DNA of 64,000 nt from Bryoerythrophyllum caledonicum. Lineage: Eukaryota > Streptophyta > Bryopsida > Pottiales > Pottiaceae. Position 1 is the stretch's first letter, and each line of letters opens with the position of its first letter. The notes below the pieces were generated by a model. That model had not been told where the DNA came from, did no database searches, and saw nothing but the letters and a program-made list of their open reading frames with translations. The position numbers and the translations under genes are program-made. Shown piece by piece: positions 21,671-64,000 of this stretch. Where the stretch lies: contig OZ020521.1 of the NCBI GenBank assembly GCA_963971425.1, positions 7,643,519 through 7,707,518 on the forward strand, in the 5' to 3' direction.

Positions 21671-21674
21671 TTAA

Positions 21675-23322: not shown

Positions 23323-23536
23323 TCCCTAAAGTTCCTTGACAATTTCCCTCAAAAACTATAAGTGGTACTAACTTTCAAACCACAAATCCAAAAAATAAAA
23401 TAAAAATATGTCCACGAAGCTCTTATCAAAGGCAATCTAGAATAAAAATTCAGAGAAAATTGATTTTTTTTCGAATTTTAGGAACCTGCCCAAAAATTAA
23501 AAAATCCCCCTGAAGGAGACTCTGGTCCTTTAGGGG
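23323..23536 (+). mobile_element. Short TTAA-type inverted-repeat element (F)
   Basis: A 214-bp unit flanked by TTAA on both sides (23319-23322 and 23537-23540). Termini are TCCCTAAAG and CCTTTAGGGG. The right third ('aggaacctgcccaaaa' and 'ccccctgaaggagactctgg') resembles the right end of B elements, so this looks like an internally deleted B derivative. Confidence 0.7.
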
Positions 23537-23540
23537 TTAA

Positions 23541-27260: not shown

Positions 27261-27911
27261 GTTGAGATTAGTGTAGCAAATGGAAGTAGGGTGACAAATA
27301 AGACCAAAGTTGTGGTTAGGACTTGAGGGTAATTAGAGCATTCAATATACATCCTCCCAATTATTTTTCACATGGTTTTTATCAATAGCATGAAAAAAAG
27401 AAACTTATATGAAGAATAGAAGTGACTAAAGATTGAAGAAAGAGGGTCAAATCCTGGCTAAATGAGATGTAGTATGATAATTCCTAGTCACTTTTAATAT
27501 AAAAATCTTCACACTTTTAACCTTCTTACCTTTTCATCACCATCTTAGGGAACTAAACCACATGAAATACTAGAAGAAATGGTTGTTGAAGGCTCAATTA
27601 TTTCCAAATATAAATGGTTTTATTAATTATAGTTCAATCCTAACTTCCTCTATAACTAGACTTTTGAAATTATCAACTTTATTGCTGATTATCATCACTC
27701 TCGAGTCTCAATATACATATTTACATGCTTGTAGAAAAAGAATTGAAGAAAACTACAACATATGATCCATTTACAAATTCTAGCCACACTAAAAACCCAT
27801 CCATGATTCAGCATTCACATTTCAAACTAGATATGATATTTCAAAAAAAATCTTCAATACAAATCCATCATACCTAACATGTGAAAGAAAAATTCTCACA
27901 ACGTACAAGAC
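27261..27911 (-). repeat. Downstream flank shared with the other NLR copy
   Basis: From about 27520 to 27911 the sequence parallels 18540-18957 (for example 'aaacca.atgaaat.a.agaagaaatggttg.tga', 'aatataa.tagactttt', 'ccatccatg.tt.a.cattt'). This shows that the NLR duplication extends beyond the coding region. Confidence 0.6.
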
Positions 27912-29100
27912 AATTTAACTCCTTGATGCTCTTTCAAAGCTCCTTCATAGATTTACATGACTTTAATCTTTTAACAACAGACAAGGCCAAAAGGGGTTTT
28001 ATTTGGTCACACGGTTATAGGTCTTGTCGTTAAATAGTTATATTTGAACATGTAAGAAACTTCAACTCCAGAATGTTCTCTTGAAGCACCTTCAAGAACT
28101 CACCTCCCGCTTAAATCCAAGTGAGTAAGAGTCTTCAACTCCTTAATGCTCTCAAAAAGCTCTTTCCAGGACTTACACTTGCTTAGATCAATGTGAGTAA
28201 GAGACTTCAATTGCTTGATACTCTCTAGAAGCTCCATCAAGGCCATTTACCCAATTAAACCCAAGTACAGAAGAGACTTCAACTCCTTCATGCTCTTCGG
28301 AAGCTTCTTCAAAGCTCAACACCCGCTTTAATGCAAGTATGGAAAAGTTCAACTCCTTGATGCTTCCTATAAGCTCCTTCAAGGACTTACACCCGCTTAA
28401 ATTGAAGCATTCAAAAGACAAAAACTAATTGATGCTCTCTAGAAGCTCCTTCAAAGTATCATACCCGCTTTGATTTAAATAAATATTTCACTCCTTGATG
28501 CTCTCTGGAAGCTCTTTCAAGGACTTACACCCGCTCAGATCCAAGCCTTTAAGAGACTTTAACTCCTTGATGCCCTCTGGAAGCTCTATCAAGGACTCAC
28601 ACCCACTTAGATTCAACTTAGTAAGAGACTTTAACTCTTTGATGCTCTCCGGAAGCTCTTTCAAGGACTTACACCCACTCATATCCAAGCTTTTAAGAGA
28701 CTTTAACTCCTGGATGCTCTCCGGAAGCTCCTTCAAAGACTTGCAGCCCCTTAGACCCAAGTAATTAAGAAATTCAAACTCCTTGAAGCTCTCTGGAAGC
28801 TCCTTCAAAAACTCACACCCGCTTAGATTCAATCGAACAAGAGACTTCAACTCCTTGATGCTCTCCAGAAGCTCTTTCAAGGACTTGCATCCGCTTAAAT
28901 CCAAGTCTTTAAGAGACTTTAACTCCTTGATGCTCTCCTGAAGCTCTTTTAAGGACTTTCACCCCCTTAGATCCAAGCCCATAAGAGACTTTAACTCCTT
29001 GATGCTCTCCGGAAGCTCCAACAAGGACTCACACCCACTAAGATTCAACTGAATAAGAGACTTTAACTCCTTGACGCTCTCTCGAAGCTCTATCAAGGAC
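27905..29100 (-). pseudogene. Out-of-frame continuation of the NLR LRR array
   Basis: After the stop at 29101 the minus strand continues with the same 24-residue LRR units in other frames. The segment 28904-28488 alone carries nearly six clean units, then the frames drift with stops down to about 27905. The array has therefore been cut by frameshifts, at least one at a deletion junction near 29130. Together with the intact part this makes about 35 units of 72 bp. Confidence 0.8.
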
Positions 29101-32100
29101 TCACACCCGCTTAAATTCAACTGAACAAGTCTTTAAGGACTTGCACCCACTTAAATCCAAGTCTTTAAGTGACTTTAACTCCTTGATGTTCTTTGGAAGC
29201 TCCTTCAAGGACTCACACCTGCTTAGATCCAAGTAGGTGAGACACTTCAAATCCTTGATGCTCTCCGGAAGCTCTTTTAAGGACTTACATCCGCTTACAA
29301 TCAAGCATTCAAGAGACTTCAACTCCTTGATGCTCTCCGGAAGCTCTTTCAAGGACTTACACCCGCTCAAATCCAAGCCTTTAAGAGACTTTAACTCCTT
29401 GATGCTCTCCGGAAGCTCCATCAAGGACTCACACCCGCTTAGATTCAATTGAATAAGAGACTTCAATTCCTTGACGCTCTCTGGAAGCTCTTTCAAGGAC
29501 TTACACCTGCTCAGCTCCAAGCCTTTAAGAGACTTTAACTCCTTGATGCTCTCCGGAAGCTCCTTCAAAGACTTGCAGCCCTTTAGACCCAAGTAATTAA
29601 GAAATTCAAACTCCTTGAAGCTCTCTGGAAGCTCCTTCAAGGACTCACACCCCCTTAGATTCAATCGAATAAGAGACTTCAAACCCTTAATGCTCTCCGG
29701 AAGCTCTTTCAAAGACTTACACCCGCTTAAATCCAAGTCTTTAAGAGACTTTAACTCCTTGATGTTCTCCGGAAGCTCTTTCAAAGACTCACACCTGCTT
29801 AGATCCAAGTAAGTAAGACACTTCAAATCCTTGATGCTCTCCGGAAGCTCTTTCAAGAACTTGCACCCACTTACAATCAAGCATTCAAGAGACTTCAAAT
29901 CTTTGATGCTCTCTGGAAGCTCCTTCAAGGACTCACACCTCCTAAAATCCAAATAAGTAAGAGACTTTAATTCCTTGAAGTTCTTTGGAAGCTCCTCCAA
30001 GGACTTACACCCGTTTAGATTCAAGTAAGTAAGACACTTCAAATCCTTGATGCTCTTTGGAAGCTCCTTCAAGGACTCACAGTCGCTTACATTGAAGTGA
30101 GCAAGACACTTCAATTCTTTGATGCTCTCTGGAATCTCCTTCAAGGACTTACACCCACTAAGAGACAAGTACGTAAGAGATATTAAGCCCTTGATGCTAT
30201 TTGGAAGCTCCTTCAAGGACGTACAAAAACGTGCACTCAAACAAGTAAGAGACCTCAACTCTTTGATGCTCTCTGAAATCTCCACCAAGGACTCACACTC
30301 ACTAAGAAACAAGTGAGTAAGAGACTTCAACCCTTTGATGCTCTCTGGAAGCCGCTTCAAGGACTTACAGAAACTAAGATCTAAATACATTAAAGCCTCC
30401 AACTCCTTAATGCTCTCCGGAAGCTCCTCTAAAGACCACTCACTTAAATTGAGATATGATAAACGTGTCATACTAGAGAAGAAATTCCTAGGAAGTGACT
30501 TTGGGAATCTACTTCCATGGCCAAATGTCATTGGTGATAGCATGCATACTCGAATGTTGTGGCCCTCAACAAACAATTGTGGGTCAAAATCTAGTACATG
30601 GGCACCCATAAAAGACACCCTCTTTGTTGTCTCTCTAATTATGGGAAGTGTCTTCAATACTTTTCCTGTCTCAAATTGACATTCATATGCCCAGTCACCA
30701 AACTTAGCATCTCGTATGATGCGCATCGCAAGGTCTCGCAAAAGATCATGTATTTTGGCATGTTTTCCATCTTCATCAAGATCAATCAAAGATCGGTTTG
30801 TAGCGGTACTCAAGTTCATCCTCCCCGTATTCAATGTATCTTCGACATCACGTGATTCAAACAATTCCTCAGCCCGCCAGATGTGATATAATCGATCCAT
30901 TGGAACACAAAAATCTTCGGGGAAAGCCGCAAAGTATAAGAAACACTTCTTTGCCTCAACACTGAGTACGTCATAACTAAATTTCAAGCGATGGAAGAGT
31001 TCATCCTCTATTGTACCCACATTTGTCCAAGATTCTGCTAACTTCAAGCGACTCAAAGCATATTTCCAACTTCGTTCATCCTTCTTGTCCCATAGTGCCC
31101 TACCAATTATCTTCAAAGCCAATGGAAGCCCCTTGCATTCATTACAAATTTCCATGGCAATCTCATTCACTTCACGCGATGGAGGTACTATGCTAGGTTG
31201 GAATGCATGAAAGGAAAACAATTTCCAACTCTCTTCTTTTGATAGCGACTTAACTTCAATCCTTTCCATGGCTCTTGCTCGGTCTAGCACAGAATTATCC
31301 CATGTCGTGATCAATGTTATACACCCATCTCCTTTGCAAATGTCCAACCAATAAATCATCCCACAATTCTTCTCAGTGTTTCCCCACACGTCATCCAAAA
31401 TAATCAAAGCTCTTTTTCGCTTGAATGCTTCCATCAAGTAGGTACCTGATCTTCCAAATCTCTCTCTCTGATGTCTCTTTCAAAGACCCCACCATCGTTT
31501 AAGAACTTTCCCATCCTTTGATACACCAAGGCAATAGATACATGTTGTCCAATAGTTATCCACAAGATAGACCCTTCCCCATATTTCTTTAGAATTTGCT
31601 CATCATTGTTCACCATCTTTGCAAGCAATGTCTTACCAGCTCCACCTCTACCCTTCACACCAAAGGTTTTGGTAACACCTAGTGGCACCGAGAGGACTAA
31701 ATCCTTTAGTTTCTTGAATGGGTTGTTATCAAATGCCACAGTAAGGGATGGAACTTGTTGCATTTCAAAGGGTGGTTGTTGATCAACCACAAAAGATGTT
31801 GTAGACGAACAAGACACCTTACAATCAATCTCTTGAATAATGTTGAGTGTAACCAAGTGTACTTCTGACGAAAGCATTCCATAGATACAGTGATCAATAT
31901 TTTTTATCTTTGAAGATAAAGCAAACTTCTTCAAAAAAGAGCATCTAGAATCCTTGTCACAATTTTGCACGATGCTTTTTGCTTCCTCAAGAAGCATATG
32001 CAAATCTTTAAGCCAAGCTTGACATGTAACATTCTTAGGATCAACAGATTGTTGAACGCTACTCAACAGTGGCTTAACACCCTCCAAAGTGGCCAAAAGA

Positions 32101-32210
32101 TTTTTGCCATCACTTTGACAATGGTATGCTCTTTTGGCCAACAAAATTAGCTCATTGAGCACCAAACCCACAGCTGCCCCTCCTATCAACTCTGCCATGA
32201 TGCTCTGCAC
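29101..32210 (-). CDS. RPW8-like CC-NB-ARC-LRR immune receptor (frameshifted, possible pseudogene)
   Basis: Two minus-strand frames abut at 31434-31440. The first (32210-31434, 258 residues; a second Met at 32198 may be the start) has an RPW8/CC-R-like N-terminus, residues about 5-140 (MAELIGGAAVGLVLNEL..), then the P-loop GRGGAGKT at 187-194. The second (to 29101) has kinase-2 (LIILDDVW), GLPLAL, an RNBS-D-like CFLYFAAFPEDF, an MHD-type IHDLLRDLA, then LRRs of 24 residues. Such proteins are intracellular ATPase switches that trigger defence or cell death. At the joint the frame slips by one base with no usable intron. The gene is either a young pseudogene or the assembly lost one base. The array then ends in a premature stop after SGCKSLK. 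It has no introns, unlike its neighbours. Confidence 0.85.
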
Positions 32211-35200
32211 ATTTTGATAAATTCATCTTTGTCACAAAATTTCAATGAGGAAAGTCTAAAACACCTAATGCTTTTCATGGTGTTTAATTGGCCATAGTAA
32301 TCAATAAGCAATGAGAAGACTAAATGCAACTTACAAACACATAATCAATGAGGAACAACCGCCAAATCTAATGATATGTCTTCCATACCTGAGAGAAATG
32401 TATATGAAATTATTGGTGGTTACTTGCAAGATAATCCAAGTATTCCAAAGCTTTCTATCGTTGAAAATTGAAGTACACAACCCTGAAGCCTAAACCATAG
32501 GCTTGAAGAAACCTGCTCAAAACATAGTGCAATGGATTAGATGCAACACAACATCAACCCATGCACATTCAAAAGTACACGAGGAATATGAATCGGGCTA
32601 GTAAATGTGCCGACATTGATTCTAGAAGATTATATAGCAAATTTTGCAAAATCACAAGTGGTGGCACAAAAGTTCTGATCTAGTTTCTAGTGCCAACATC
32701 AAGTCTAGCAAAACACAACAGCCTTCACCAAATCACAAGTAAATAGCACTACATATTCCAATAATGAAAAGACAACAAGACATTGTATGTGCATTGGAGT
32801 CCATAATTGGGTGAGCATGTAGCCATGGTCATAGTTGTGACTCTTACCCTCTACCTACAAACCACTTCATCGTAGTTGTGAGCCACAATCTAACGTGCAA
32901 CACATCCACAACCCAAAATGCTAGAGCAAGTCACCCACGCCGTAACCACCTTTGCCACTTCATTGTAGTTGTGAGCCACAATCTAACGTGCAACACATCC
33001 ACAACCCAAAATGCTAGAGCAAGTCACCCACGCCGTAACCACCTTTGCACTTCATCCATAAGTAACACATCTATAACATGTATCTGCAACTTGACAAGAA
33101 AGCTCAAATACAATCAAAAGCTCTAATCTCCTACAAGTGAACGAACGAAGGGACTAACGACTCTCAGACTTCCGCAAGGGTTCAACCATTCCGCTCTTTA
33201 ACAACCCCCAAGTCGAGCACTACAAAGTTTCAAAAAACTAGCTATGCATGTGGATTATAAGCTTAAGCTTGCTAGTCTAGGTGGGCTCCGGATGAGATGC
33301 TAGTCGAAGACAAAGTACAGGCAATAAGTGACTGGACAAAGGTCAAAATGTGTTAAAGAGCAGAATGCCACAAGTGCATGCATGCATGAGCAGTACAAAT
33401 ACAAAGTGATAGTACCTGATTCAAAACACATGTCGCAGAAGCCATCCAGAGAGATCCGCAGACGCCCCTGCTCAAGATGTTCAGCTTGAAGCTCCAAAAA
33501 CACGGAGTATCAGAGTTCAGAGGTTCCTCCAAAAACATTTCTCCACTCATATGATAAATTCAACATGCCTAATGTTTAGAATTTAGAAATCATATCAAAA
33601 CTGAACTTCAAAGTTCAATTGCGCTTAAAATTTGCACTACAGATTAGTACTACAAGAGATTTATTTCACGTTTTTCCAACAAGGTGGCATTTTCAAATTA
33701 ATTATTGCATATTATGAACCTTGACATGTTACCTGAGGTGGACAATGTGGGAGGATAACTCATAAGGTTGGGAGGATTTGTAGGTGGTCAATTTGGAACT
33801 GTAACCAATTCAGGTACTTCTATTTTAGATGCATGCCATGTGCAACTTTCAGATAACTGCCACAATTTAAGAGAGGGATGAGCATTACCCGTACACTCAA
33901 CAAAGCGTCCACTGTCACCTCCTTTGTTGATGGAATAAAAAGCTAGGACCTCCCTACACCACCACAATCAAACAGTTTAGATAATGAAAAGATTGAGTAT
34001 ACTCTTGCTGAAACGGATTATTTTTTATTTTTTTATATCCATGTATTAGTTAGAATTTTGTTGATATCCTAGTCTAATACTTGGTCGATGACACCCATGT
34101 CGTGAAATGGAAATGGACAAGAAGACGATGTTGTAAGCCTAGGAAGGCAAAGGTACCTGATCAAGGAGAATAGATGTTGGAGAAGCGATCCAGCGCACGC
34201 TCTGCGACACACCAAGAACTTCTCTTAATCAGTGTGAAGCTCCAACTTCTCTGTGTACAGGCAACGGCAGGAGGACAGAGTATGAGAGAACTTAAGGTAC
34301 AAGACTACATAAGACAGGTTTTCCTCACACTGATGAAGCTCCTTCATATGCCAGTAAGATAGGAATCTGGTAGGAAGTGTGCCGAGAGGATGCGGAAAAT
34401 GAACCAGGTCCAAGGGGCTCCGCACACCAGTATGACATCTACGCAATACTCACATGATACTCGTGCCAGAAGCGGTCGCCTCGAACCCTGAAAAGCACAA
34501 GCCAACAACATCGCGCACAGACCAGTGAAGGGTGCGGTCTGTGGAACGAGAAGGTCTCTGGTCTACAGCGGATGTTGGATCAGTGTTCCAGCGCACGTAC
34601 GCTCGGCAACACAACAAGCCAACCTGTCCAACAAACAATCTGGCGCAGCTTGATGCTCCGAGTAGAGAGTAGTAGCGGCAATGGCTGCAACAAGGAGGAT
34701 CAGAGTTCGGAGTCTCAGGCTTCAAATGAAGCCACTGAAGGAGTAGATACAGCGCTCAGAGAACAAGGTCGAGAGAGACTACATTGTGAGCCAATTGCAG
34801 CACCTGCTCTGTACCGTAGTGGTCAAATAAGCATGTGACCGAATGCTTTCCAGTTCCCTACGTTGTGGTCGCTTTCGTACATAATTAACTCAAAATGGAG
34901 AGGTGATACCATGTAATACTTAGGTGATGTCCATTGTGTCCGAATCATTCTTTCGACATCAAAAAAATAATTCTTTCGACATAGAGGTGTTGCAAGCGAC
35001 CAACTGTACCTATGTATTACCACCTATACCACCCGTACCTATGTCGACACAGGTACGGTATTAACAATAGTTTTTCATCCTCTGAATGTCGTAATCAAGT
35101 TCACGTGCTTAGACCGCCACTGGCCACGCTGCAGACTTTTCAAGTCCTTGAATCCCACCCAGGTACAGTAACTTACAGTGTTCGTCACAATACATAGTCT

Positions 35201-39461: not shown

Positions 39462-40203
39462 GAAGAAGAAGAAGAAGAAGAAGAAGAAGAAGAAGAAGAA
39501 GAAGAAGAAGAAGAAGAAGAAGAAGAAGAAGAAGAAGAAGAAGAAGAAGAAGAAGAAGAAGAAGAAGAAGAAGAAGAAGAAGAAGAAGAAGAAGAAGAAG
39601 AAGAAGAAGAAGAAGAAGAAGAAGAAGAAGAAGAAGAAGAAGAAGAAGAAGAAGAAGAAGAAGAAGAAGAAGAAGAAGAAGAAGAAGAAGAAGAAGAAGA
39701 AGAAGAAGAAGAAGAAGAAGAAGAAGAAGAAGAAGAAGAAGAAGAAGAAGAAGAAGAAGAAGAAGAAGAAGAAGAAGAAGAAGAAGAAGAAGAAGAAGAA
39801 GAAGAAGAAGAAGAAGAAGAAGAAGAAGAAGAAGAAGAAGAAGAAGAAGAAGAAGAAGAAGAAGAAGAAGAAGAAGAAGAAGAAGAAGAAGAAGAAGAAG
39901 AAGAAGAAGAAGAAGAAGAAGAAGAAGAAGAAGAAGAAGAAGAAGAAGAAGAAGAAGAAGAAGAAGAAGAAGAAGAAGAAGAAGAAGAAGAAGAAGAAGA
40001 AGAAGAAGAAGAAGAAGAAGAAGAAGAAGAAGAAGAAGAAGAAGAAGAAGAAGAAGAAGAAGAAGAAGAAGAAGAAGAAGAAGAAGAAGAAGAAGAAGAA
40101 GAAGAAGAAGAAGAAGAAGAAGAAGAAGAAGAAGAAGAAGAAGAAGAAGAAGAAGAAGAAGAAGAAGAAGAAGAAGAAGAAGAAGAAGAAGAAGAAGAAG
40201 AAG

Positions 40204-40253
<50 letters not shown>
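39462..40253 (+). repeat. Giant GAA microsatellite (248 units) plus 16 CAA units
   Basis: A perfect (GAA)248 from 39462 to 40205 continues as (CAA)16 to 40253 and two CGA units. I saw no interruption. Read on the minus strand it is (TTG)16(TTC)248, directly following the 5S-like head of a retroposon. Long GAA/TTC tracts of this size form triplexes and silence nearby genes in other eukaryotes. The long open frames of single amino acids across it are artefacts. Confidence 0.97.
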
Positions 40254-40347
40254 CGACGACATTCTTCGGAACCGGGCATGGGTTAAGGCGCTTAACTTCA
40301 GAGTTCTGATGGGATCTAGTGTAGTAGCCTTGGTATGACCGCATCAC
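39464..40347 (-). mobile_element. 5S-rRNA-headed retroposon (SINE-like) with TTC tail
   Basis: Minus strand from 40347: GGTGATGCGGTCATACC, GATCCCATCAGAACTC and GAAGTTAAGCG match, in order and spacing, the 5' about 60-65 nt of plant 5S rRNA including the box A of its internal Pol III promoter. A short non-5S stretch follows, then (TTG)16 and (TTC)248. The unit is flanked by a near-direct repeat (minus: CCATAGCGG before the head, CCATAGCCGG after the tail) and interrupts the RNase H reading frame between TGYG and YGIYNSS. Head with Pol III promoter, simple-repeat tail and target duplication are the marks of a SINE or retroposed 5S transcript. Confidence 0.75.
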
Positions 40348-41926: not shown

Positions 41927-42170
41927 CAAAATGAGGTTCTTCTTGAAGAAACCAATTTAGGAAGATAATGATGATTTTCAAGTGGCCAATTTAGAACTGT
42001 AGCCAATTTTGCCATAGATTGCAACAAAGATGGAAGGTCTCTAATATTTACATATTGATCACATTGTACTAATATATAGTATATATACTCTATGTTTAAT
42101 ATATGATCTTATAATCCTGTTTTCATCCAATAATATAATTCCACTTCATCCCATTTCATCCATGACATAA

Positions 42171-43027
42171 ACCCCTAAGTCCCAAGGCATTTTTACATCA
42201 AAATATTTCAAAGCCGCTTGTTCTAGTGCAATGAGTAAGGAAGAAAACAAAAATTTGTTTTTCTACATTTAATCATAGGTTCTTGATAAAGACTTTTGGT
42301 GTAATCTACTCACAAAGTTTCATAAACTTTGCCCACACAGATTGAAAGATTTTAGTTTTTGAAGTAGAAAAAATGGTTCATTACCTTCCTTGCGTTGAGT
42401 GGATCAGCAGATTTCACTTGGTGTCAAAATATGCACTACACAAGGTCTAGATACTTTACCATCATGTGAAGCATTATGTTAGTTCCTTGCACACCAATTT
42501 TTAGAGGTGGTGAAGGGATGTATCATATTCAAAATAACTGTGCAAGGAAAGGAGGTTTCAAAATTATCAATTCACATTCTTTTTTAGAGCTAAATATGTT
42601 ATAGAATGAAAATTCAAACGGTCAACAAGGTTTACACCACGTTTTGTAGTAGAAATGTTAAAAATATGAAGATCTCCAAGTTCTATGTGGAAGTGAAGAT
42701 TTTTTTGGTACCTTGTCCAACAATGTGTAAAACATTGTTCATGTTAATTTTTAATGTTAATGTTAATGTTAATGTTACTTTTGTAAAACTAATTAATGTT
42801 ATTTTCCCCTAGACAAGAAATTATTTTTGACAATTTAAAAGGACTAAACAATACTCGAAAACTTATGTCCTTTTATAATGAGCACTTATTTCAAAATGTG
42901 CTCACACAAAGCTTTTAGTAACGCCCATCTCCATTAAAGATTTCAAAGAATAATGTTCAAAATTGACATCATAGAAACATAACCAAACCTTCAATAGTCC
43001 CTTGAGGGGACTCTTGGAATTTAAGGG
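42171..43027 (+). mobile_element. TTAA-type B element (B2)
   Basis: 857 bp with left end ACCCCTAAGTCCCAAGG (flanked by ATAA, probably a mutated TTAA) and right end 'ctcttggaatttaaggg' followed by TTAA (43028-43031). The internal blocks match B throughout, including 'gtaccttgtccaacaatgtg'. It lies just downstream of the DUF707 gene's stop codon. Confidence 0.75.
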
Positions 43028-43176
43028 TTAAGAATTGCAACAAAGGATGTGACTGCATTGCAATGGGTTCTTCTCAGATGAGTTGAATTACAGGTTCCAG
43101 AACTGGGAAATATGATACAGAGGGTAAAAACCTAAGCTAAATATGAACTAAATATAATACTAAATGTTAACCCCTT

Positions 43177-52380: not shown

Positions 52381-53350
52381 TCGCTCCTTAGGAGCCTAGG
52401 TGGAGTATGTAATACTGTAGTATTATTCAAGGAATGCGAGCCTATGGTCCATGAAATACGCACGATGAGATCTCTCACCCTCTCAATATTTCTGTTTTTA
52501 AATCTCACCATGATTTTGCAATTAGAAAAGAAGACAAGGTCTTCAAAAGGTACTGCAGATGGTCTTTCTGGCTGACATAAGGTGGCCACCCTCCAAAAAT
52601 CAGACTTATAGAAAAACTCTATAAGGTAAGCCCCTCTAAATCCGACAAGTTAAGGATGTGCATATATGGAGAGAGGAGAAAATTATACTATTATTTTTCA
52701 GTGATAGCCAATAGAATTACAATTCCAACCCAAGTGATTTCATATTTTTCCGATGAAAACTGAAGTAGTTATGAATTTTCAAACTGTGCAGCCATGTTTA
52801 GTGGTGGCCAACAATAGGTACCCCCATAAAACCAACAACCAAAAGTAAGGGTCTTGACTAATAGCAAACCTCCATTTGGAGCTCAGTTGTTGGTAATGGG
52901 ATGGAAGATGTTTGAATATACCCCAATTTTATAGGCGTTGGCCATGGATTTTTGTTGGTTATGGGGAGGCTTACCTTAACATAGATCTCAATATTATATT
53001 GGTTGCACAATGCATTTTGGAGAGGTGGACCCTTGTCTTAATGGCACCCTCTTTTTTTTCTCCTTCTTCCACTTTAGAAGATCCAAAAAAAATTGCCTCA
53101 ATTTTATCGAGGCCTCGACTGCTTTAAATAGGTCTCCTATCCAAAACTAAAATGGGGGCCATGTTTAACCCCACCCCCCCTCCGAAGATACCTTGTGCAA
53201 CCAAAATATTGAGATCCTCATTTATTATACCTTTAGTTATTACACCAAACTGACTAGTATTTAGTGTCATATGGCAATCAATAATTGACGCTCCTTGTAT
53301 ATATTAATGATGGTATTAAGATAAGCCTCCTCCCCCTAGTACTGCACAAG
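52381..53350. repeat. Intergenic with repeat H (52650-53010)
   Basis: No gene. The stretch 52650-53010 is a contiguous copy of a repeat whose second copy (53658-53804 plus 54849-55010) is split by about 1 kb of TTAA-bounded sequence. The contiguous copy serves as an empty site. Confidence 0.6.
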
Positions 53351-53354
53351 TTAA

Positions 53355-53653
53355 TCCTTTAACGTCTACGTGGACGACGAGAGTCAGAGGCAATCTACGA
53401 GTGTAGTAGATTAGGTAAAACATCATCCACACTGTGGATACATTTTAGCACAAAAATCTACAACCCCACTTCATAGGAATCATTGTAGTTTGTTGATGCC
53501 TGCATGGATTAGAGATTGGAATGATCTGTTAGAAAGTTAATGAGGAGCTCAAAATGTTCAGAGTACGCAACATACAATAGACTATTGTAGAAAGAGTTAC
53601 AAGAGAAAAAGCACAAAAAAGAACCCTGCTAGGGCCTCTTAGGCGCTAAAGGA
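53355..53653 (-). mobile_element. TTAA-type C element (C2)
   Basis: A 299-bp unit flanked by TTAA at 53351-53354 and 53654-53657. The right terminus TTAGGCGCTAAAGGA mirrors the left end of C1. Internal similarity to C1 in reverse orientation includes 'gcatggattagagattgg' and 'aatctac...gtgtagtagatta'. Confidence 0.8.
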
Positions 53654-54042
53654 TTAAGCAATGTGCATATATGAGAGAACAAATATTTATACATTTATTT
53701 TTAAGTGATACCCAATAGAATTACAATTTCAATCCAAGGGATTAGATCTTTTTCAATAAAATAGAAATTAGTTATGAATCTTCAAAGTGGGTTGCCATGT
53801 TTAACCCTCAAACGTTAGAACTTAGAAGGTGCCACTATGTTCATAGTGACCACAGTGTTATGTATTTATGGTGTTGTATTTGAACAAGTCAAAGTTCAGA
53901 TATTGAAATGGCCTCCAAACGAAAGATGTTAGTTGAAGAAATTCCAATTGAAAGGTGTAACTCTTGTTGTACTTGAATACATCTTTATTATTCTACAAAG
54001 TAAAGTACGTGCATGTATATACGGTTCCAGACTGACATTTAA

Positions 54043-54848
54043 CCCCTAAAGGACTAGGCCTTGTGCTTCACCAAAACCACTCCAAAATTGCCACTTAGAC
54101 ATGAGATGTTTTTAGATTAATTAAAACACCTATTTACTATTTTCAACCATAGTATTTTCAAGATCGCTACTAGAAAAGACACCCATTTTTTTTTGTAAAA
54201 GTTGACCGTGCGGATTGTGAAATACCTACATTTGAAGAGTGCAAATTTGTTTTAATCAATGTGCCTGGACAGAGCTAGCATACTTTGACTCAAGATAATG
54301 GCATATTTTTTCCACTACATATTGCATAAGCTCAATGGATCTATGTTCTACCTTGTGTTAGGTCATTGCACGCCAAAAATCACAAGTAATGGAGGTGTTT
54401 ACGACAAGAAAAATGGACATGTAACCACTAGGGATATAGAAAGTGGCCCTTTACTTAGAAAAACAATTTTATTTTTTAAATAAAGAAATAATTGTTGGAT
54501 CAAAACTCCAAAAGGTTAATAGAATTTTTGTGACTTATTCTAAAAATATACAATATTTTTCAAAAAAAGTAAAATCCTCAATTTCTATGCGTTTTTAAGT
54601 GAAAACAATGAAGGTTGCCAAAGGGAACATGCTTCGTATGTTTGAAACACCATAAAAAATTTCCTATAAGTTCAAATAAAGATTAAAAAAAATTCTCGCA
54701 AAGATAATCCTTATTTTTATTCTCACTATAAATTTCAAGAAATTATCTTTGAAAATGGATTTCTAGGAAGTTCCTAGAAATCCATTTTCAACCTACCTAA
54801 AATCAATTTGTAGCCCGCAATGTACAAATGGTCCTTTAGGAATAAGGA
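54043..54848 (+). mobile_element. TTAA-type A element (A1)
   Basis: About 806 bp starting CCCCTAAAGGACTAGGCC after TTAA (54039-54042). The right end carries GTCCTTTAGG and a slightly altered tail before TTAA (54849-54852). It is similar along its length to A2 and A3. With the preceding TTAA-bounded stretch (53805-54038) it forms a composite that splits repeat H. Confidence 0.8.
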
Positions 54849-54852
54849 TTAA

Positions 54853-55164
54853 CCAATGGCCGCCAATAGGTACTTCCAAAAGCGTTGACCAAAAATAAAA
54901 AGCCTTGACTAATAGCAAATCTCTATTTGTAACTGAATGGGATGGAATGGGATGGAAGTGAGTTGGACATATTTCAACTTCATAAGTGTTAGTTATGGAT
55001 TTTGGTAGAGGCCTAAATGTGTTAAGAGAGGATAAAAATCTAAGACTATTTTTCAACTTTAACGATTTTGGAGTAGAACACTCTCAGGACTTTAATTGAC
55101 TTCACAAATAAACAAATTATTATCTTTTTGAATATAACTAGCATTCCATTTGTTCTTTGGAGCA
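54853..55164 (+). other. Second half of repeat H and AT-rich spacer
   Basis: 54853-55010 continues repeat H after the TTAA-bounded composite. The rest is AT-rich without recognised features. Confidence 0.5.
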
Positions 55165-55290
55165 AGAAGAAGAACTCCAGTTTCCGAAGGAGACCGACGT
55201 GAATGTAGTGTTTGTTCATTCTCTTCACTAAGCATATGGCCATGGGACATAGGCTAGTGTAATAGAACTACTCCCCCCTCTCGAGGGTAA
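55165..55290 (-). mobile_element. TTC-tailed repeat module, copy 5
   Basis: The reverse complement begins GTTTACCCTCGAGAGGGG, has the 'CCTATGTCCCATGG' hairpin region, TTCACGTCGG, and ends GAGTTCTTCTTCT. Same family as the retroelement 3' module. Confidence 0.65.
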
Positions 55291-55429
55291 ACACTTTTCT
55301 ACACTAAGTGCTTCCCTACACTAATTACCTTAGAGACAACCAACATGTCATCTCCCCCAAGGGCTTTGTGGGTCCCATACAACAAGGCCTTGGGACCCCC
55401 CACCATAATTGGGTGGACAATGGTGGTAC

Positions 55430-55870
55430 GCCGGTGTGCCATGACTCAAACCACAACCACCTCACCGGTGTGCCATGACTCACGTAGGCACCTCACCGGT
55501 GTGCCATGACTCACGTAGGCACCTCACCGGTGTGCCATGACTCACGTAGGCACCTCACCGGTGTGCCATGACTCACGTAGGCACCTCACCGGTGTGCCAT
55601 GACTCACGTAGGCACCTCACCGGTGTGCCATGACTCACGTAGGCACCTCACCGGTGTGCCATGACTCACGTAGGCACCTCACCGGTGTGCCATGACTCAC
55701 GTAGGCACCTCACCGGTGTGCCATGACTCACGTAGGCACCTCACCGGTGTGCCATGACTCACGTAGGCACCTCACCGGTGTGCCATGACTCACGTAGGCA
55801 CCTCACCGGTGTGCCATGACTCACGTAGGCACCTCACCGGTGTGCCATGACTCAAACCACTACACCAACG
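55430..55870 (+). repeat. 31-bp minisatellite, 13 copies
   Basis: From 55463 to about 55855 thirteen head-to-tail copies of a 31-bp unit (CACCGGTGTGCCATGACTCA + CGTAGGCACCT) are virtually identical; diverged copies flank both sides. Every unit carries TGACTCA overlapping CACGTA, and can fold into a hairpin through CCGGTG / CACCGG and GCC / GGC. Confidence 0.95.
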
Positions 55871-56303
55871 CCGTGGTGCCTGCTCTTTGGAGCATGTCTA
55901 TGGTGAGCGCTGTGCAATGCATCCATATCTAAAATTTTAGAAATTTTAGCACATGGTTCAGAAACTGGCTATTCATACCCCAAACTCCTATGTAAAATTG
56001 ACCAATGAAACAGTATTAAAACCAAACATGTTCTACAAATTAATATATAGTTTAGGTTTGTCCCTTAAACTGAGCAGGCAAGTATTGAAAGAAACATACA
56101 AGTGGAGATCATGCAAGGAACTATGGCATGTATCATGTAATTTAGGACACTCTAATTAAAACCGCATGCAAAGAAAATGAAAATAATAGAGGACATGTTT
56201 GAGGAATGTTTCAAGAAACCAAATAAAGCTTTGTTTGGAATAAAAATAGGGGTCATTTTTTGTCCACACTCCCCTTCCCATACCATCCGTCTAGTAACAA
56301 AAT
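55871..56303. other. Intergenic spacer, no gene seen
   Basis: AT-rich sequence with one short frame (55953-56159) lacking any recognisable domain. Confidence 0.4.
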
Positions 56304-56307
56304 TTAA

Positions 56308-58132
56308 TCCCTAAGAGACTAGGCCTTATGTTTCACCAAAACCACCCCAAAATTGCCACTTTGACATAAATATTATTAGAATAATTAAAACATTCTTTTA
56401 CCATTTTCAACCGTAGGATCTTCAAGACAATTACTTAGAAAAGACACCCACAAAATTTCATAAATTTTGACAGTGCGGATTGTAAGATACATGCATTTAA
56501 AGAGTGAAAATTTGTTTTTTCCCACTGTGCTTGGATAGGGTCAGCATACTTTGACTCAAGATAATGGCATATTTTTTCCACTACACATTGCATGCACTCA
56601 ATGGTTCTATGTTCTACCTTATAATAGGTCATTGCACACCAAAAATCACAAGAAATCAAGGTGTTACGATAAGAAAAATGGACTTGCAATGACAAGGGGT
56701 ATTAAAAAGTGGCCCTTTACTTAGAGAAGAAATTTTATTTTTTTCATTGACAAATAATTGTTGGATCTAAAATCCAAATTGCGAATAGAATTTTCATGAT
56801 TTATTCTTAATATAGAAAATATATATCTCAAAAAAAGTAAAACCCTTAATTTCTATGCATTTTTAACCCTAAATTACCAAGCCATTTTCAAACCAAAAAT
56901 ACTTCAAAACTACTCGTTTTAGTACATTGAGTAATAAGGAAGAAAACCAAAACTTTTATGTGTGATTTAAATCATAGGATCTCAATAAAGACTTATTAAA
57001 TAACATACTCACAAGATTCCATCAACATTTAGGGCACGGGTTGAAAGATTATAGTGTTTGAATCAAGAAAAGGGTTCGTTTTCTTCCTTGCATTTTGTGG
57101 ATCAACAAAATTTGACTTCACTTGGTATCCAATGTTTGCACTACACAAGGTCTAAGTCCATTACCACCATATTAAGCATGATCTTTCTTCCTTGTACACC
57201 AATTTTTAGAGGTAAACAAAAGGTGTAGCATATTCAAAAGAATTGTGCAAGAAGTGGAGGTTCAAAATTGTCAATTCACCTTATATTTTTTTGTGAAGTA
57301 AATATGTTTTAGAATGAGAATCCGAATGGTGAACAAGAAGGTGTACACCACATACTGCCGTGGAGAAAATAAAAATAAGAATTATGAAGATTTCTAAGTT
57401 TTATGTGGAAAGGAAGAAGATTTTTTGGTACCTTACCCAACAATATATGACAATGTGTGAAAATGTTTGACTTGGATTTATTATGCTATTTTTTAGTAAA
57501 GACAAGAGAATTTTCATGACAATCTGAAAGGAGATTACATTGTTTGTTATTATTAAAAATCTCACATCCAATAGAGTGTCCTAGCAAAAGTTTTTGGAGT
57601 TGCTCGACGTGCCCACTCTCCCCATTTGAACTTCAACACCCTATAACTTTTTCATTAAATGTCGGATTAAAGAAAAAATTGGACTCACACAAAGCATTTA
57701 GTAGTTTTCATCTACAATAAAAATTTTGAAAAATAATTTTATAAATTTACACAAGAGGAACCTGCCCAAACTTTCAAGAGTCCCCCAAGGGGACTCTTGG
57801 TAAATTAGGGATTAAGTGAAAACAATGAAGGTTGCCAAGAACCTTCTTTCACTTTTGCCCTCTTCAAAAAGGTGCAATTGACAACTCTACAATAGCACTA
57901 TTCATCTTTGTAGCACCTTGCCTAGCTGCCAAAATGAACATGCTTCTAATGTTTGAAGCACCATACATTTTTCCCTGTAAGTCCAAGAAATAAATAAAAA
58001 TAAAAATCCCGGCAAAGATAACCCGTACTTTTATTTTCACTAAAGATTTCAAGAAGTTATCTTCATAAATGGATTTTAGGAACCTACCCAAGATCGATTT
58101 GAACCCCGCATGTACAAATGGTCCTGTAGGGA
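56308..58132 (+). mobile_element. TTAA-type A element (A2) with nested B element
   Basis: Starts TCCCTAAGAGACTAGGCC after TTAA (56304-56307) and ends GTCCTGTAGGGA before TCAA (58133-58136). It is split by a B element at 56867-57811; without it A2 is about 876 bp, matching A3 (869 bp). The A-family consensus across the break is seen uninterrupted in A1 near 54597. Confidence 0.85.
56867..57811 (+). mobile_element. TTAA-type B element (B), nested and complete
   Basis: A 945-bp unit with left end CCCTAAATTACCAAG and right end CTTGGTAAATTAGGGA, a clear inverted repeat, flanked by TTAA (56863-56866 and 57812-57815). A subterminal hairpin AGTCCCC..GGGGACT lies at the right end. No transposase. It is inserted in A2 at a TTAA. 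Confidence 0.9.
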
Positions 58133-58136
58133 TCAA

Positions 58137-59005
58137 CCACTAAATATTTGGGCCTTGTGCTTGACCATAACCACCCCAAAATTGCCACTTTGATATGAGA
58201 TATCATTAGACTTATTCAAACAACCATTTACTATTTTCAACCGTTGGATCTTCAAGCTAACTACTACAAAAAGACACCCTCAAAATTTCATAAACTTTGA
58301 CCGTATGGAGAAAGATATATGCATTTGAAGAGTGCAAACTTGTTTCTTACGACTATGCCCGGACAGGGCCAACGTACTTTGACTCAAGATAGTCGCATAC
58401 TTTTCCACTACACATTGCATAAACTTAATGGATCTATGTTTTACCTTGTGTTAGGTCATTGCATGCCAAAAATCACAAGAAATGGAGGTGTTTACAATAA
58501 GAAAAATGGACCTGCAACAACTAGGGTAGAGAAAGTAGCCCATTGCTTATGAAAGCCATTTTTTTTTAAATAGAGAAATCAATTTTGTATCTAAAATCCA
58601 AATGGTATATAGAATAATCATGACTCATTCTAACAGTAGAAAAAAACAGCTTTCAAAAATAAGCAAAATCCTCAATTTCTACAAGTTTTTTTGTGAAAAC
58701 AATGAAGGTTGCCAAGAACTTTCATTCACTACCACCTGCCTAAAAAAAGTGCAATTATCAACTCTATAGTAACACTATTCATCTCTATAGTACCCTATCG
58801 ATTTTCCTAAAGAGTTGAGCATTTTATGTTTGAAGCACCATAACTTTTTTCTTGTAAGTCCCAAAAAAAAATAAAAAATCCTTGCAAAGATAACCCGTAT
58901 TCCTATTTCTACTAAAAATTTCAATAAGTTATCTTGAAAAATGGTTTTTTAGGAACCTGCCCAAAATCAATTTGTACCTTGCAAGTACAAATGGTCTTTT
59001 ACGGG
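58137..59005 (+). mobile_element. TTAA-type A element (A3)
   Basis: An 869-bp head-to-tail neighbour of A2, separated only by TCAA. Left end CCACTAAATATTTGGGCC, right end GGTCTTTTACGGG followed by TTAA (59006-59009). No coding capacity. Confidence 0.85.
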
Positions 59006-59029
59006 TTAAAAAAATCCCTATTTATTTAA

Positions 59030-59305
59030 CCCTTTGGCGCCAAAGAAGCCTAGGCAGGGTTGATTTTTGTGCTTTTGCTCATTTAGCTCATTCTACAATA
59101 GTCTACTACTCTGAACGCTTGTCGAGCTCCTTATTAGCTTTTCAACATATCATTCCAATCTCTAATCCATGCAAGCATAGACAAACTATAGTGATTTGCA
59201 CAAAATGGAGGTGTAAATTTGTGTGTTGTGTAGATGATGTTTTGCCTAATCTACTACACTAGTAGATTGTCTTTGACTCTCATGGTCCACACAGGCGCTA
59301 AAGGA
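59030..59305 (+). mobile_element. TTAA-type C element (C1)
   Basis: A 276-bp unit after TTAA (59026-59029) with ends CCCTTTGGCGCCAAAG and GGCGCTAAAGGA, the right flank being TTTA. The C termini carry GGCGC in place of the CCTAAAGG of A and B. Same family as C2. Confidence 0.8.
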
Positions 59306-59431
59306 TTTATAGGACCACCAAGTGGAACAACCATTCTTATTTTCAATTGATTAAAAAATGTTAAGTGCTATAATTTAGAGATTGATTTTAATAATTGGAA
59401 ATCTGAAAAAATGGTCAATAGTTCTTGGCTT

Positions 59432-60175
59432 CACTTTAGAGCCCATATCATGTTTCTTCAAAACCAAGATATGTGCTGATTTTTTTCTTTGAACTAACTT
59501 TATGGAAGTATCCAACCTTACAAAATTAAACTCAATCCATAACCTAAACTTTGGGGAAAATTTGCACAACATCCAACGATTGATGGAATAGATTATAGTG
59601 TTTGAAGATACTATATATTGGTAATGAAAATTGTGGACTTTGGAGGGTGTACTATTTTATCCATCAATAGATTCTTGCAAGAATTCTTGTACTTTGAATA
59701 AAAGAGGTTTGCATGTGCACTAGGATGATAGCTTTGCATTGACATATCATACGTGAAGAAAACATTTATGCATGATTGTTGATGATTTTCTTTTTCTTTT
59801 TCTACTTGATTGTATACAAAAATGTTCCAAACTTATACAAATTAAAACCAAAGTTTTGTATGCAATGAGAGAGATGAACAATCATAAAATGATGAAGAAT
59901 CTCTAAAAGATCAAAATCATTTTGCATGTGTATGAAATACAACATAGAATGCAGCATGTATTTCAGTGTATATGATGTATTTTGTGTTGAATTCCTAGCT
60001 TTTCTAAGAGTTCTATTACTTTAAATCATGATTTGGTTTTTGGAGAATGTTCATGTATTGTGTGCACAAATCTCAACATCACATTTCACAACCTAATTCC
60101 CCATGGATTTTGTGAAAGTTGAGTTTTAACACCTCCAAAGTCCCATTTTGGGTCTCATGAGCACTTAAGGATAAA
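59432..60175 (+). mobile_element. D-type element (D1)
   Basis: Similar over more than 450 bp to D2 (63394-63907), e.g. CTTTGGGGAAA, TTGATGGAATAGATTATAGT and GTTGTATACAAAAATGTTCC-like blocks. The left end (TTTAGAGCCC) is a mutated form of D2's TTAACCCTTTAGCGCCC. The right end is not clear. Confidence 0.6.
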
Positions 60176-60280
60176 GTGCGGAAAATAATAGGAGCCACTT
60201 TATCGATGAGAGCCAAATGATAATTACACTACAATAGTTAATGCTCTTACTGTCATTTAAAAATTAATTTTAAAATTTAA

Positions 60281-61200
60281 CCCCTAGAGGGTCAAGTGTC
60301 ATAAAATAGCATTTCGAAGGTTTGGTCATGTTCCTATGGTGTCAATTTCTAGCATTCCTCTTTGAAATTTTAGCTGTAGATGCGCATTACTAATACCTAA
60401 GTTAGTATAAAAACAAATTTTTCCAGATCCAACATTTAATTAAAAAGATATAGGATTTTGAATTTCAAATGGAGCGAGCGGGCACGTTGGGCACCCCTAA
60501 AACTTTTTCTTGGACACTCTAGTGAATGTGAGATTTTCATTACTAGCAATTAATATTATTTCTTATCATATTTTTTATAAAATTCTTGTCTTTAGTGAAA
60601 AAAAAATATTAACCCAAGTCAAACACTTTCACACATTGTCACACATTGTCGCGCAAGGTACAAAAAAACTTCTTCCTTCCTACGTAAATATTCCTATTTT
60701 TTACTTTTTATTTTTCCAAAACATTATGTGGTGTAAACCTTCTTATTGACCATTTGGATTATCAATCTAAAACATGTTAAGTTCACAAAAAATTAAAATG
60801 TGAATTGGCAATTTTTGAACCTCCACTCCTTACACATATGTTTTGAATATGCTACACCCCTCCTCTACCCCTAAAATAAGTGTTCAAGGAACTACCATGA
60901 TACTTAACACAATGGTATTGGATTTTGACCTTGGGTAGTGCAAAAATTTATCACAAAGTCAGGTCAAAGTCTATAAATCCACTCAATGCAGGGAAGAAAA
61001 TGCTCTACTTCAAACACTATAATCTTTCAATCTGTGCAGCCAAATTTATGAATTTTTGTGAGGACGTCACTCAATAAGTCTTAATTGAGATCCTATGATT
61101 AGAGGTAGAAGTTTAATGTTATGTTTTCCTCGTTACTCATTGCACTAGAACAAGCAGTTTTGAAATGCTTTTGGTGTGAAAATGCCTGGGTCTTCAAGGA
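60281..61200 (-). mobile_element. TTAA-type B element (B3)
   Basis: 920 bp, reverse orientation, ends CCCCTAGAGGGTCAAG and GTCTTCAAGGA, flanked by TTAA at 60277-60280 and 61201-61204. Colinear with B4. Confidence 0.85.
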
Positions 61201-61589
61201 TTAATATGGTGTGATAATTTTACCAAGTGTTAGGAAGATATCAAGATATAGAAAGGCTCTTGGTTACTTTTTAATGATTAAGAAATGTTGTATGTAAGAA
61301 GGACCATTTCCCATGGAGGAACATTTTCCAATTGTGGTCTCAATTTTCATTGTAAATTTCTCAAATTTTGTGGTATAATAGGAGTTTTTTGGAAATACTA
61401 CTCTTTTTTCACACCACCATTAAAAATGAGCTATCCCATTCTAAGTGCAAGGTTGAGGACTTTGGGCAAAACAAGAAAATTGCTACAAGTTTTTATTGAT
61501 ATTTAAATACACATAAATAATATTTGTTTCTTTAATGTTGTAAAAAATAAAAATTCCTAGTAGGAAAAACATTTTAACATGTTCAAAAA

Positions 61590-61945
61590 TAGTCAGGAGA
61601 GAGTACCAAAAATAACTTCTTCTTTTTCACATAAAAGCTAGAGATTTCAATATGTTACTTCTTATATTCCTACTACAAGATGTGGTGTAAGCTGTCTTAT
61701 TGACCGTTTGGATCCTCATTCTAAAACATATACACTTCACAAAAATTAAAATGTATTATAGCAGTTTTTGAACCTTCAATCCTTGCACATTATTTTCAAA
61801 CATGTTAAAACCCTTTTCTACCTCTACAAGTTTGGTGTCCAAGGAACTAATATCATGTTCAACACAATGGTATAGAATTTAGATGTAAAATACTCTTACA
61901 CATGTAGGTGTTTACCAAAGGCTTGTTTTGACGTTTAAGGATTAA
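61590..61945 (-). mobile_element. TTAA-type B element fragment (B5)
   Basis: Internal B blocks in reverse orientation: 'agagtaccaaaaa.aacttcttctt', 'gatgtggtgtaa.c..tcttattgaccgtttgga', 'ttttgaacctt.a.tccttgcaca'. Both ends are lost or too diverged to place. Confidence 0.65.
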
Positions 61946-62173
61946 ATTGGAAACAAAAAGTTTAATTTTCTTCTGCACCCTCTTTACAATAGTTTCAGCA
62001 CTTGTCAATAAACTTTAGAGGTTGAGCCAAGTTGTACGTGTGGAACCACCAACCCTTTAAGGACGATGGTCAATTCTGGTTGTTGACAGAATCTCCAACG
62101 GTCGTAGATTTTTTGATAGAATCTATGACACTCGTAAATTTTGTTAACGATCAAAATCAACCATCGTTTTTAA

Positions 62174-63121
62174 CCCCTAAAGACCCAAGAGCCCCCTCGG
62201 AAGACACTTGAAGGTCTCGATAGGTTCCTATGGTGTCAATTCATAACATTCCTTTTTGAAATTTCTAGAGTAGATGGACATTGCTAAAAGCTTTGTGTGA
62301 GTCCAATTGTTTTTCTTCTAAATCCGACGTTTAATGAAAATGTTATAGGGTTTTGAATTTCAAATGGGGAGATTGGGCACCTCGGGCATCTCCAAAAACT
62401 TTTGCTGGACAATCTATTGAATGTGAGATTTTCAATACTAGCAAATAATATTATTTCCTTTTATATTCTCAAAAAACAATCTCTTGTCTTAAGTGGAAAA
62501 TTGCATAATAATCTAAGTCAAACATTTTCTCGCATTGTCACACTTTGTCGGGCAAGGTACCAAAAAAACTTCTTCTTTTCCACATAAAACTTAGAGGTCT
62601 TCATATTTCTTACATTTTATTTTTTCTCCTACAAGATGTGGTGTAAACCTTCTTATCCACCATTCGGAATATCATTGTAAATCATATTTACTTCACAAAA
62701 AATAAAATGTGAATTGGCAATTTTTGAACCTCCACTCCTTGCACATTTGTTTTGAATACGCTACACCCCTTTTCTACCTCTAGAAATTGGTGTACAAGGA
62801 ACTAACATCATTTCCAACATGATGGAAATATTTTCTGACCTTGTATAGTGCAAGAAGTTGACACCATGTGTAGTCAAAGTCTACTAATCCACTCAAAGCA
62901 GGGAAGAAAAAGAACGGATTTCTTTACTTAAAACATTATAATCTTTCAATCCGTGCGGTCAAAGTTTATGAAATTTTATGAGGACGTTAACAAATAAGTC
63001 TTAATTTAGATCCTATGGCTAAATGTAGGAATAAAAGGTTTTGATTACCTCACTACTCATTGCACTAGAACGAGCAGTTTTGAAGTGTTATTGGTGTGAA
63101 AATGCCTTGGGTCTTTAGGGG
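62174..63121 (-). mobile_element. TTAA-type B element (B4), complete
   Basis: 948 bp with ends CCCCTAAAGACCCAAG and CTTGGGTCTTTAGGGG, an almost perfect 16-bp inverted repeat, flanked by TTAA at 62170-62173 and 63122-63125. The best-preserved copy for a family consensus. Confidence 0.92.
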
Positions 63122-63393
63122 TTAAGATTTAACTGAAAATAATTGACAATAAATTACAATGGCCACCAAAAGGCAACAGTACTTGCCTTCAGATCACTAT
63201 TATACTTCATTCTCCATTGGACATTTGGTTGAACGCAAATTTGTATGGTATGGCGAAGGTTCATAGGATAGTGAACACATTCCTTGCACTTTCAATAGAT
63301 TTGACTATTTAGCGGGTCATGCTAGACAATAATGCGTAGAAGTATAACATCTCTAAGGTTTATTTCAAGTTTCAAGCAAGGCCAATTCATTAA

Positions 63394-63907
63394 CCCTTTA
63401 GCGCCCAGGGATGTTTCTGGAGAAACCAAGAATTCTGCTGATTTTTTTCTTTGAACCGGAATTGATGGAAATACAATGACTAATATTAATATCTAACCTT
63501 ACAAAATTGAACTTAACCCATGATCTTAACTTTGGGGAAATTTTGCACAACATCCAACCGTTGATGGAATAGATTATAGTGTTTAAAGTTACCGTATATT
63601 GGTAGTGAAAACTGTGGAATTTGGAGGGTGTACTAATTTAACTATCAACAGAGTCTTGCAAGAATTTTGTTACTTTGAATTAGAGCGGTTCACATGTGCA
63701 CTAGGTTGATAGCTTCGCATTGACATATTATATGTGAAGAATTTTTTTATACCCAATTATTGGTGATTTTTTTTCTTTTTTCTACTTGGTTGTATACAAA
63801 AATGTTCCAACCTTATACGAATCAAAACCGAAGTTTCGTGTGTGAGGAGAGAGATCAACAATCACAAAACAATGAAGAATGTCTCAGAGACCAAGTTCAA
63901 TCAAAAT
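63394..63907 (+). mobile_element. D-type element (D2), interrupted by A4
   Basis: Begins CCCTTTAGCGCCCAGGG after TTAA (63390-63393), so its terminus is of the C type, then runs parallel to D1. It is cut at a TTAA (63908-63911) where A4 begins. The D3 copy near 22130 shows the uninterrupted site. Confidence 0.75.
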
Positions 63908-63911
63908 TTAA

Positions 63912-64000
63912 CCCCTAAAGGACCACGACCACTTTCGCTCTAAAACCAGTCCAAAACTGCCACTGCCAAAAAGAGACATGAAAATCACATCTTAAAGTGA
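63912..64000 (+). mobile_element. TTAA-type A element (A4), left end only
   Basis: CCCCTAAAGGACCACGACC after TTAA, then 'aaccagtccaaaactgccac' as at the start of A1-A3. It runs off the window. Confidence 0.8.

Follow-up and report, generated by a model that had tools for sequence, protein, structure and literature searches.

TTAA-bounded miniature elements attributed to the piggyBac superfamily, and piggyBac transposase genes, in a land-plant genome

Introduction

The piggyBac superfamily of DNA transposons has been described chiefly in animals, fungi and protists. Its members piggyBac (PDB 6x67 and 6x68) and piggyBat (9c0f) have a DDE_Tnp_1_7 domain with three aspartates (D-D-D), a C-terminal cysteine-rich part, a TTAA target and C-rich 5' ends, and animals also harbour piggyBac-derived miniature inverted-repeat transposable elements (MITEs), which are short and without a gene, sit at TTAA and have their ends in common with coding elements. 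Here we analyse a 64-kb stretch of land-plant DNA, called the window throughout, which has a cluster of short TTAA-bounded elements between positions 52650 and 64000, belonging to four families (A, B, C and D). We consider it very probable that these families are non-autonomous, MITE-type members of piggyBac, and that piggyBac transposases encoded at other places in the genome move them into TTAA sites; the genome is probably that of a moss. They resemble the animal MITEs and differ from them in their host and in the presence of several diverged families side by side. The superfamily is already known, and the novelty lies in the host and in the scale.

The initial annotation of the window regarded piggyBac as barely described in land plants. 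The host is indeed unexpected, yet the superfamily has already been mentioned for land plants (PMC10004981, PMC6890710). PiggyBac is named in a review among the angiosperm MITE superfamilies (PMC10004981), and two further articles state in general terms that such elements occur in plants (PMC8086355, PMC10813416). In the fern Ceratopteris, likewise a non-seed land plant, repeats bear the name PiggyBac, but as a label that a classifier gave to 1,230 repeats (about 122 kb), whose ends and transposase are not described in the excerpt (PMC6890710). Within the openly licensed PMC literature, surveyed mostly by title, we recognised no description of native piggyBac transposase genes in a moss, with or without cognate MITEs.

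The cluster and its TTAA target

Self-comparison of the window, combined with reading of the ends, resolved 11 TTAA-type units between 52650 and 64000, in agreement with the at least ten units of four families annotated initially: A1, A2 and A3; B1, B2, B3 and B6; C1 and C2; D1 and D2. Their lengths (about 807–884 bp, or 0.81–0.88 kb, for A; 928–956 bp, or 0.93–0.96 kb, for B; 283 and 307 bp for C; about 0.75–0.8 kb for D, the nested element not counted) fit the size classes claimed earlier, and copies of one family are 74–83% identical within the window. The A and B ends consist of TTAA followed by CCCCTAAAG-like sequence, and the C and D ends of TTAA followed by CCCTTT(A/G)GCGCC-like sequence, each inverted at the opposite end and decayed in older copies; both correspond to the 5'-CC..GG-3' termini of piggyBac. 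The motif TTAACCCYTWWRG, with one mismatch at most, occurs 11 times in the 64-kb window against 1.46 expected, and none of 100 shuffles reached 11. By the coordinates assigned here, elements make up 15% of the window and 71% of 52650–64000, and translation of 52501–64000 in six frames returned a single Pfam match, with an E of 0.55, taken as noise.

The target could be read from four insertions lying inside repeats of which another copy serves as empty site (window coordinates, without strand). B3 (56863–57815), with TTAA at both ends, splits A2 (56304–58136) with junctions TTTTTAA and TTAAGTG, and the uninterrupted sequence in A1 (54039–54845) is TTTTTAAGTG, a clean empty site. The 307-bp C1 (53351–53657), also with TTAA at both ends, lies in copy E2 of a repeat called E, with junctions ACAAGTTAA and TTAAG, and the other copy, E1, reads ACAAGTTAAGG without interruption, which is again a clean empty site. 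A third insertion in E2, the TTAA-bounded X (53801–54852), which has the ends TTAACCCTCAAACG and TTAATCC and carries A1 nested near its right end, corresponds to GTTTAG in E1, where TTAG has one mismatch to TTAA. The fourth, B6 (63908–64000, running on as far as extended position 64840; both ends have TTAA), splits D2 (63390–64000, running on as far as extended position 65126; both ends have TTAACCCTTTAGCGCCCA); D1 (59420–60175) aligns on both sides of it, but the target bases of D1 are not preserved. Since D2 and B6 run past the window end, their right ends were read in 2.2 kb of downstream sequence (L029). The elements insert at TTAA with duplication of these four bases, as in piggyBac, and the termini counts and genomic copies given below agree with the empty sites in this.

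Flanking by TTAA, which had been claimed for the units in general, holds at both ends for six of the 11 (B1, B2, B3, B6, C1 and D2), at a single end for A1, A2, A3 and C2, and at neither end for D1, a decayed unit with approximate ends. A1 has kept its left TTAA and has a decayed right end (ATAA); a 43-bp near-perfect palindrome lies inside it at 54749–54791. A2 also has its left TTAA intact, and its decayed right end (TTGA, read inward) is common to A3 (58133–59009), whose left end is decayed (TCAA) and whose right TTAA is intact. C2 (59026–59308), of 283 bp, has an intact left TTAA and a decayed right end. B1 (60277–61204) measures 928 bp and has TTAA at both ends, B2 (62170–63125) measures 956 bp and has TTAACCCCTAAAGACCCAAG at both ends, and between them lies a B-like fragment (61439–61945) with the right end TTAATCCTTAAACG. 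The range and one assignment of the initial annotation had to be amended: despite an A-like left end, the unit at 63908 belongs to the B family (74–77% identity to B copies), and further copies lie outside the annotated range, namely B4 (42166–43031; ATAA on the left, TTAA on the right), the shortened B5 (21074–21674) and a 222-bp unit (23319–23540) with TTAA at both ends and related to the A/B ends.

Two other kinds of repeat are found in this part of the window. Repeat E occupies 52620–52980 and, interrupted, 53316–55020; its ends resemble TTAAG(G/A)TAAGCCYC, with purine-first termini adjoining TTAA or TAA, and it is perhaps Kolobok- or Harbinger-like. At 55458–55854 there is an array of 12.8 copies of a 31-bp unit with 100% matches (Tandem Repeats Finder).

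Copies across the genome

The genome searched has a size of 437,360,962 bases, spread over 894 contigs; the one that holds the window is 27 Mb long. A first look returned 11,332 candidates for B (query B2), 3,255 for A (A3), 2,696 for D (left 518 bp of D2) and 785 for C (C2), totals that are not to be read as copy numbers; 40 candidates per family were scored. The 39 scored D copies other than the query are 96–97% identical to D2, the main B matches 78–89% identical to B2 (78% being B1 of the window), the main A matches 79–86% and the scored C copies 73–78% identical to the query. The listed copies are spread over many large contigs, with near-identical element copies at unrelated places. TTAA at both ends, expected genome-wide from the initial annotation, was found in 10 of 10 D, 8 of 11 B and 7 of 10 A copies, but in 3 of 10 C copies (the first ten in listing order for D, A and C, self excluded; 12 fetched loci minus the query for B); the flanks differ, and most of the copies that fail are one base away from TTAA. 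C looks like the oldest family.

Because the copy-search queries included TTAA, a count of the termini alone is the less biased test of the target. The exact D terminus CCCTTTAGCGCCC occurs 444 times in the genome, 382 of them directly after TTAA, and the exact B-type terminus CCCCTAAAGGCCCAAG 874 times, 658 of them directly after TTAA, where about 0.8% would be expected from base composition at 40% G+C; the reversed-pattern controls for these termini gave 1, 0, 0 and 0. Short, with terminal inverted repeats, in many copies and without coding capacity, the four families have the properties of MITEs. As for relatives in viral contigs, none of 57 pattern matches was confirmed.

Plants are full of Tourist-like MITEs, whose termini are G-rich, unlike the CCC termini seen here. 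It is extremely unlikely that A–D are such PIF/Harbinger elements with a 3-bp TAA or TTA duplication that resembles TTAA by chance, and we rejected this explanation: Tourist duplications are TAA or TTA (PMC10004981), but here all four bases recur on both sides, TTAA stands before the great majority of the termini just counted, and the two clean empty sites have one TTAA against two at the filled site. We also rejected, as scarcely credible, an origin of the cluster in chance motifs, tandem duplication or contamination. Some D ends do stand in tandem: on contig C1 (G000:C1:6093807-6161988) exact D termini recur every 840 bp on one strand, which suggests tandem amplification of D units. Against such an origin, the listed copies lie on many large contigs with differing flanks in those read, the reversed-pattern controls were 0 or 1, and plant genes are present in the same window.

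The piggyBac transposase genes

A search of the same genome for DDE_Tnp_1_7 (PF13843), proposed with the initial annotation, was positive at 120 places, each above the curated cut-off and with a best E of 6e-81 (116 scored out of 305 candidates; in some cases two matches belong to different parts of a single gene), and the profile had no match in 14 control genomes. We read 10-kb loci around 20 of the best matches. Copies of coding elements could be compared in three groups and are 4–7 kb long: L011 and L012 share 5.8 kb at 99.4%, L009 resembles both at 95–99% in pieces, L014 and L019 share 4.9 kb at 97%, and L023 and L026 share 4.0 kb at 98%. In all seven, similarity ends at TTAA followed by CCC(C/T)T, the bases outside being unrelated, and the sequence after the boundary TTAA is CCCTTAAACG, CCCTTAAATG, CCCCTAAAG or CCCCTAAAAG. 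The right ends taken for L009, L011 and L012 are 9248, 8987 and 8952, where the copies diverge, and automatic pairing had put other ends first (8278, 8468 and 8433). A pair of ends surrounds the gene in 14 of the 20 loci, these seven included; the pairing is less sure in the seven paired loci without a sister copy.

DDE_Tnp_1_7 was recognised in all eight element proteins scanned, and two other proteins in that scan are neighbours, one a kinase and one without match. The two transposases that were compared with the PDB matched solely piggyBac and piggyBat, with E only about 1e-25 to 1e-30. Fifteen frames, near-duplicates among them, were aligned, and the D-D-D triad is kept in 15 of 15, 15 of 15 and 13 of 13 sequences, at positions which we take to be catalytic from the alignment with 6x67. 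Seven C-terminal columns (six Cys and one His) are kept in the 13 of 13 frames that reach them, and by its resemblance this cluster appears to be the known cysteine-rich domain of piggyBac transposases. The coding elements differ from piggyBac and piggyBat by this low similarity, by their length of 4–7 kb, by their land-plant host and by the size of the protein in several copies: the frames of L011, L013, L021, L024, L026 and L028 have 813–1059 residues, whereas the PDB chains have 594 and 578. In these frames the piggyBac domain starts at residue 329–577, after a long N-terminal part without Pfam match.

The ratio of nonsynonymous to synonymous substitution (Ka/Ks) was computed for ten pairs, four of which were saturated and gave no value. 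It was 0.06 for L013/L014 and for L013/L019, 0.15 for L020/L021 and 0.22 for L016/L024 (rough values, Ks being above 1.3 in all), which points to constraint acting between transposase lineages. Among recent copies no constraint was visible in L011/L012 (1.32) and L014/L019 (0.79), values that rest on very few changes.

These genes also bear on Kolobok (T2-type), another TTAA superfamily, whose target is likewise a 4-bp TTAA (PMC9587614, PMC6004289) and to which A–D might be assigned as MITEs. We give this next to no credence and rejected it: Kolobok termini are 5'-RR..YY-3' (PMC9587614), whereas the termini here begin with CCC, and the coding elements that have these ends carry piggyBac transposase genes, so that Kolobok is already contradicted for A and B.

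Linking the MITEs to coding elements

The outer 250 bases of the units were compared with 24 coding ends, keeping the best score, with six shuffles per end as null. The A left ends scored 38–56 against the 5' ends of L009/L011/L012 (null maxima 9–14), and the right ends of A2 and A3 scored 25–37 against their 3' ends (null 7–13). The B ends scored 95–104 on one side against the 5' end of L015 (null 7–16) and 31–49 on the other against the 3' ends of L009/L011/L012 (null 9–13). Judged from these alignments, the ends of A and B share homology with ends of elements that carry a transposase, and the initial reading of the families as non-autonomous piggyBac gains support from transposase genes elsewhere in the genome, in elements with like ends. 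B-like sequence also adjoins the transposase gene inside the L009/L011/L012 elements, perhaps as an old nested copy.

Several results weigh against the attribution of all four families to piggyBac. The right end of A1 scored 11 against L009/L011/L012, as did its null, and for the C and D ends the comparison with the coding elements gave scores equal or close to the shuffled null, with two exceptions: the right end of C1 against L014 (15, null 5) and the left end of D2, whose best match (25, null 10) is L024, an element of the CCCCT type. The gene is oriented oppositely to the ends in L017 and L024 as compared with L009, L011, L012 and L015, so that some end pairings may be wrong or the elements mosaic. 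No end pair was accepted in six of the 20 loci (L010, L016, L020, L021, L022 and L027); the best pair of L010 resembles a B copy, and L027 has a weak CCCCT pair. To these must be added the low retention of TTAA in C copies and the choice of coding loci by PF13843, by which another transposase with the same ends would escape detection.

The link thus appears weaker for C and D, which share little beyond the terminal motif with coding elements, than for A and B. An alternative would keep A and B in piggyBac and place C and D in another TTAA superfamily, such as Sola3, whose target is TTAA, or in an unknown one. In keeping with it, neither the 20 loci read nor the roughly 100 of 382 D-motif places that were listed and compared by eye with the PF13843 matches yielded a coding copy whose ends are exactly those of C or D; among these places, only contig position C2:24536558 lies less than about 6 kb from a match (C2:24542010). 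We nevertheless consider it improbable, since TTAA with 5'-CCCTTT termini is typical of piggyBac, which has CCCT and CCCTTT in beetles (PMC12732532) and 5'-CC..GG-3' termini (PMC10045372), and the first 17 bases of D2 are identical at 15 of 17 positions to one end of L014, which encodes a piggyBac transposase.

A tree of the 20 transposase domains has a branch of 0.87, with support 100/100, that parts six CCCTT loci from the other 14 (eight CCCCT and six unassigned); the CCCCT loci by themselves do not form a single group, and long branches lead to L015, L022 and L025. In the 14 loci whose ends were assigned, the type of end agrees with the transposase clade, and an unpaired CCCTT-like right end in L022 is at odds with the pattern. 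Membership of C and D with the CCCTT-type clade is only suggested, and the best match of D2, the CCCCT-type L024, speaks against a simple pairing of D with that clade.

The host

The land-plant host named in the initial annotation is safe. The window carries an RPW8-NB-ARC-LRR gene (LRR, leucine-rich repeat) and a phototropin-like LOV domain, which in the PDB matches Phototropin-1 (2z6c) best, and LEAFY is present in the same genome, with seven SAM_LFY matches. The LEAFY DNA-binding part of locus L102 is identical to PDB chain 4bhk at 101 of 107 residues (241 bits, against 112–173 bits for four other LEAFY chains), and this chain presumably comes from the moss Physcomitrella. The host is probably a moss. 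The RPW8-NB-ARC-LRR gene, with tandem LRR units of 72 bp (24 residues) and a similar LRR stretch nearby, is found at 18549–20618 and 27532–32222. At 39462–40346, runs of (GAA)248 and (AAC)17 lie directly beside a minus-strand match to 5S rRNA (41.8 bits; gathering threshold 38).

Proposed mobilisation and significance

In the mechanism that we propose as the most likely, a transposase from a coding copy would bind the CCC-type ends of a satellite, acting on ends that begin with CCC(C/T)T; the bound satellite would be cut out at TTAA and inserted at another TTAA by cut and paste. A–D would be moved by these enzymes, and excision would restore TTAA without a scar. By analogy with the known members of the superfamily, binding, cutting, seamless repair and present activity may be expected here.

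A more ambitious proposal is that a moss hosts a native piggyBac system, very recently or still active, with at least two deep transposase clades differing in their ends (CCCCT and CCCTT) and thousands of satellite MITEs. We hold this to be quite possible while leaning slightly against it, and our confidence is lowered because the D2 left end best matches a CCCCT-type element. If true, it would represent a naturally plant-adapted piggyBac, in which transposase and terminus diverge together within one genome.

The 120 transposase-family matches in a land plant, with candidate satellite places in the thousands, extend the host range of the superfamily and provide natural material for plant genome tools. 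Two questions also become testable: how the superfamily came to be present in land plants, and whether each transposase evolves in step with its ends.

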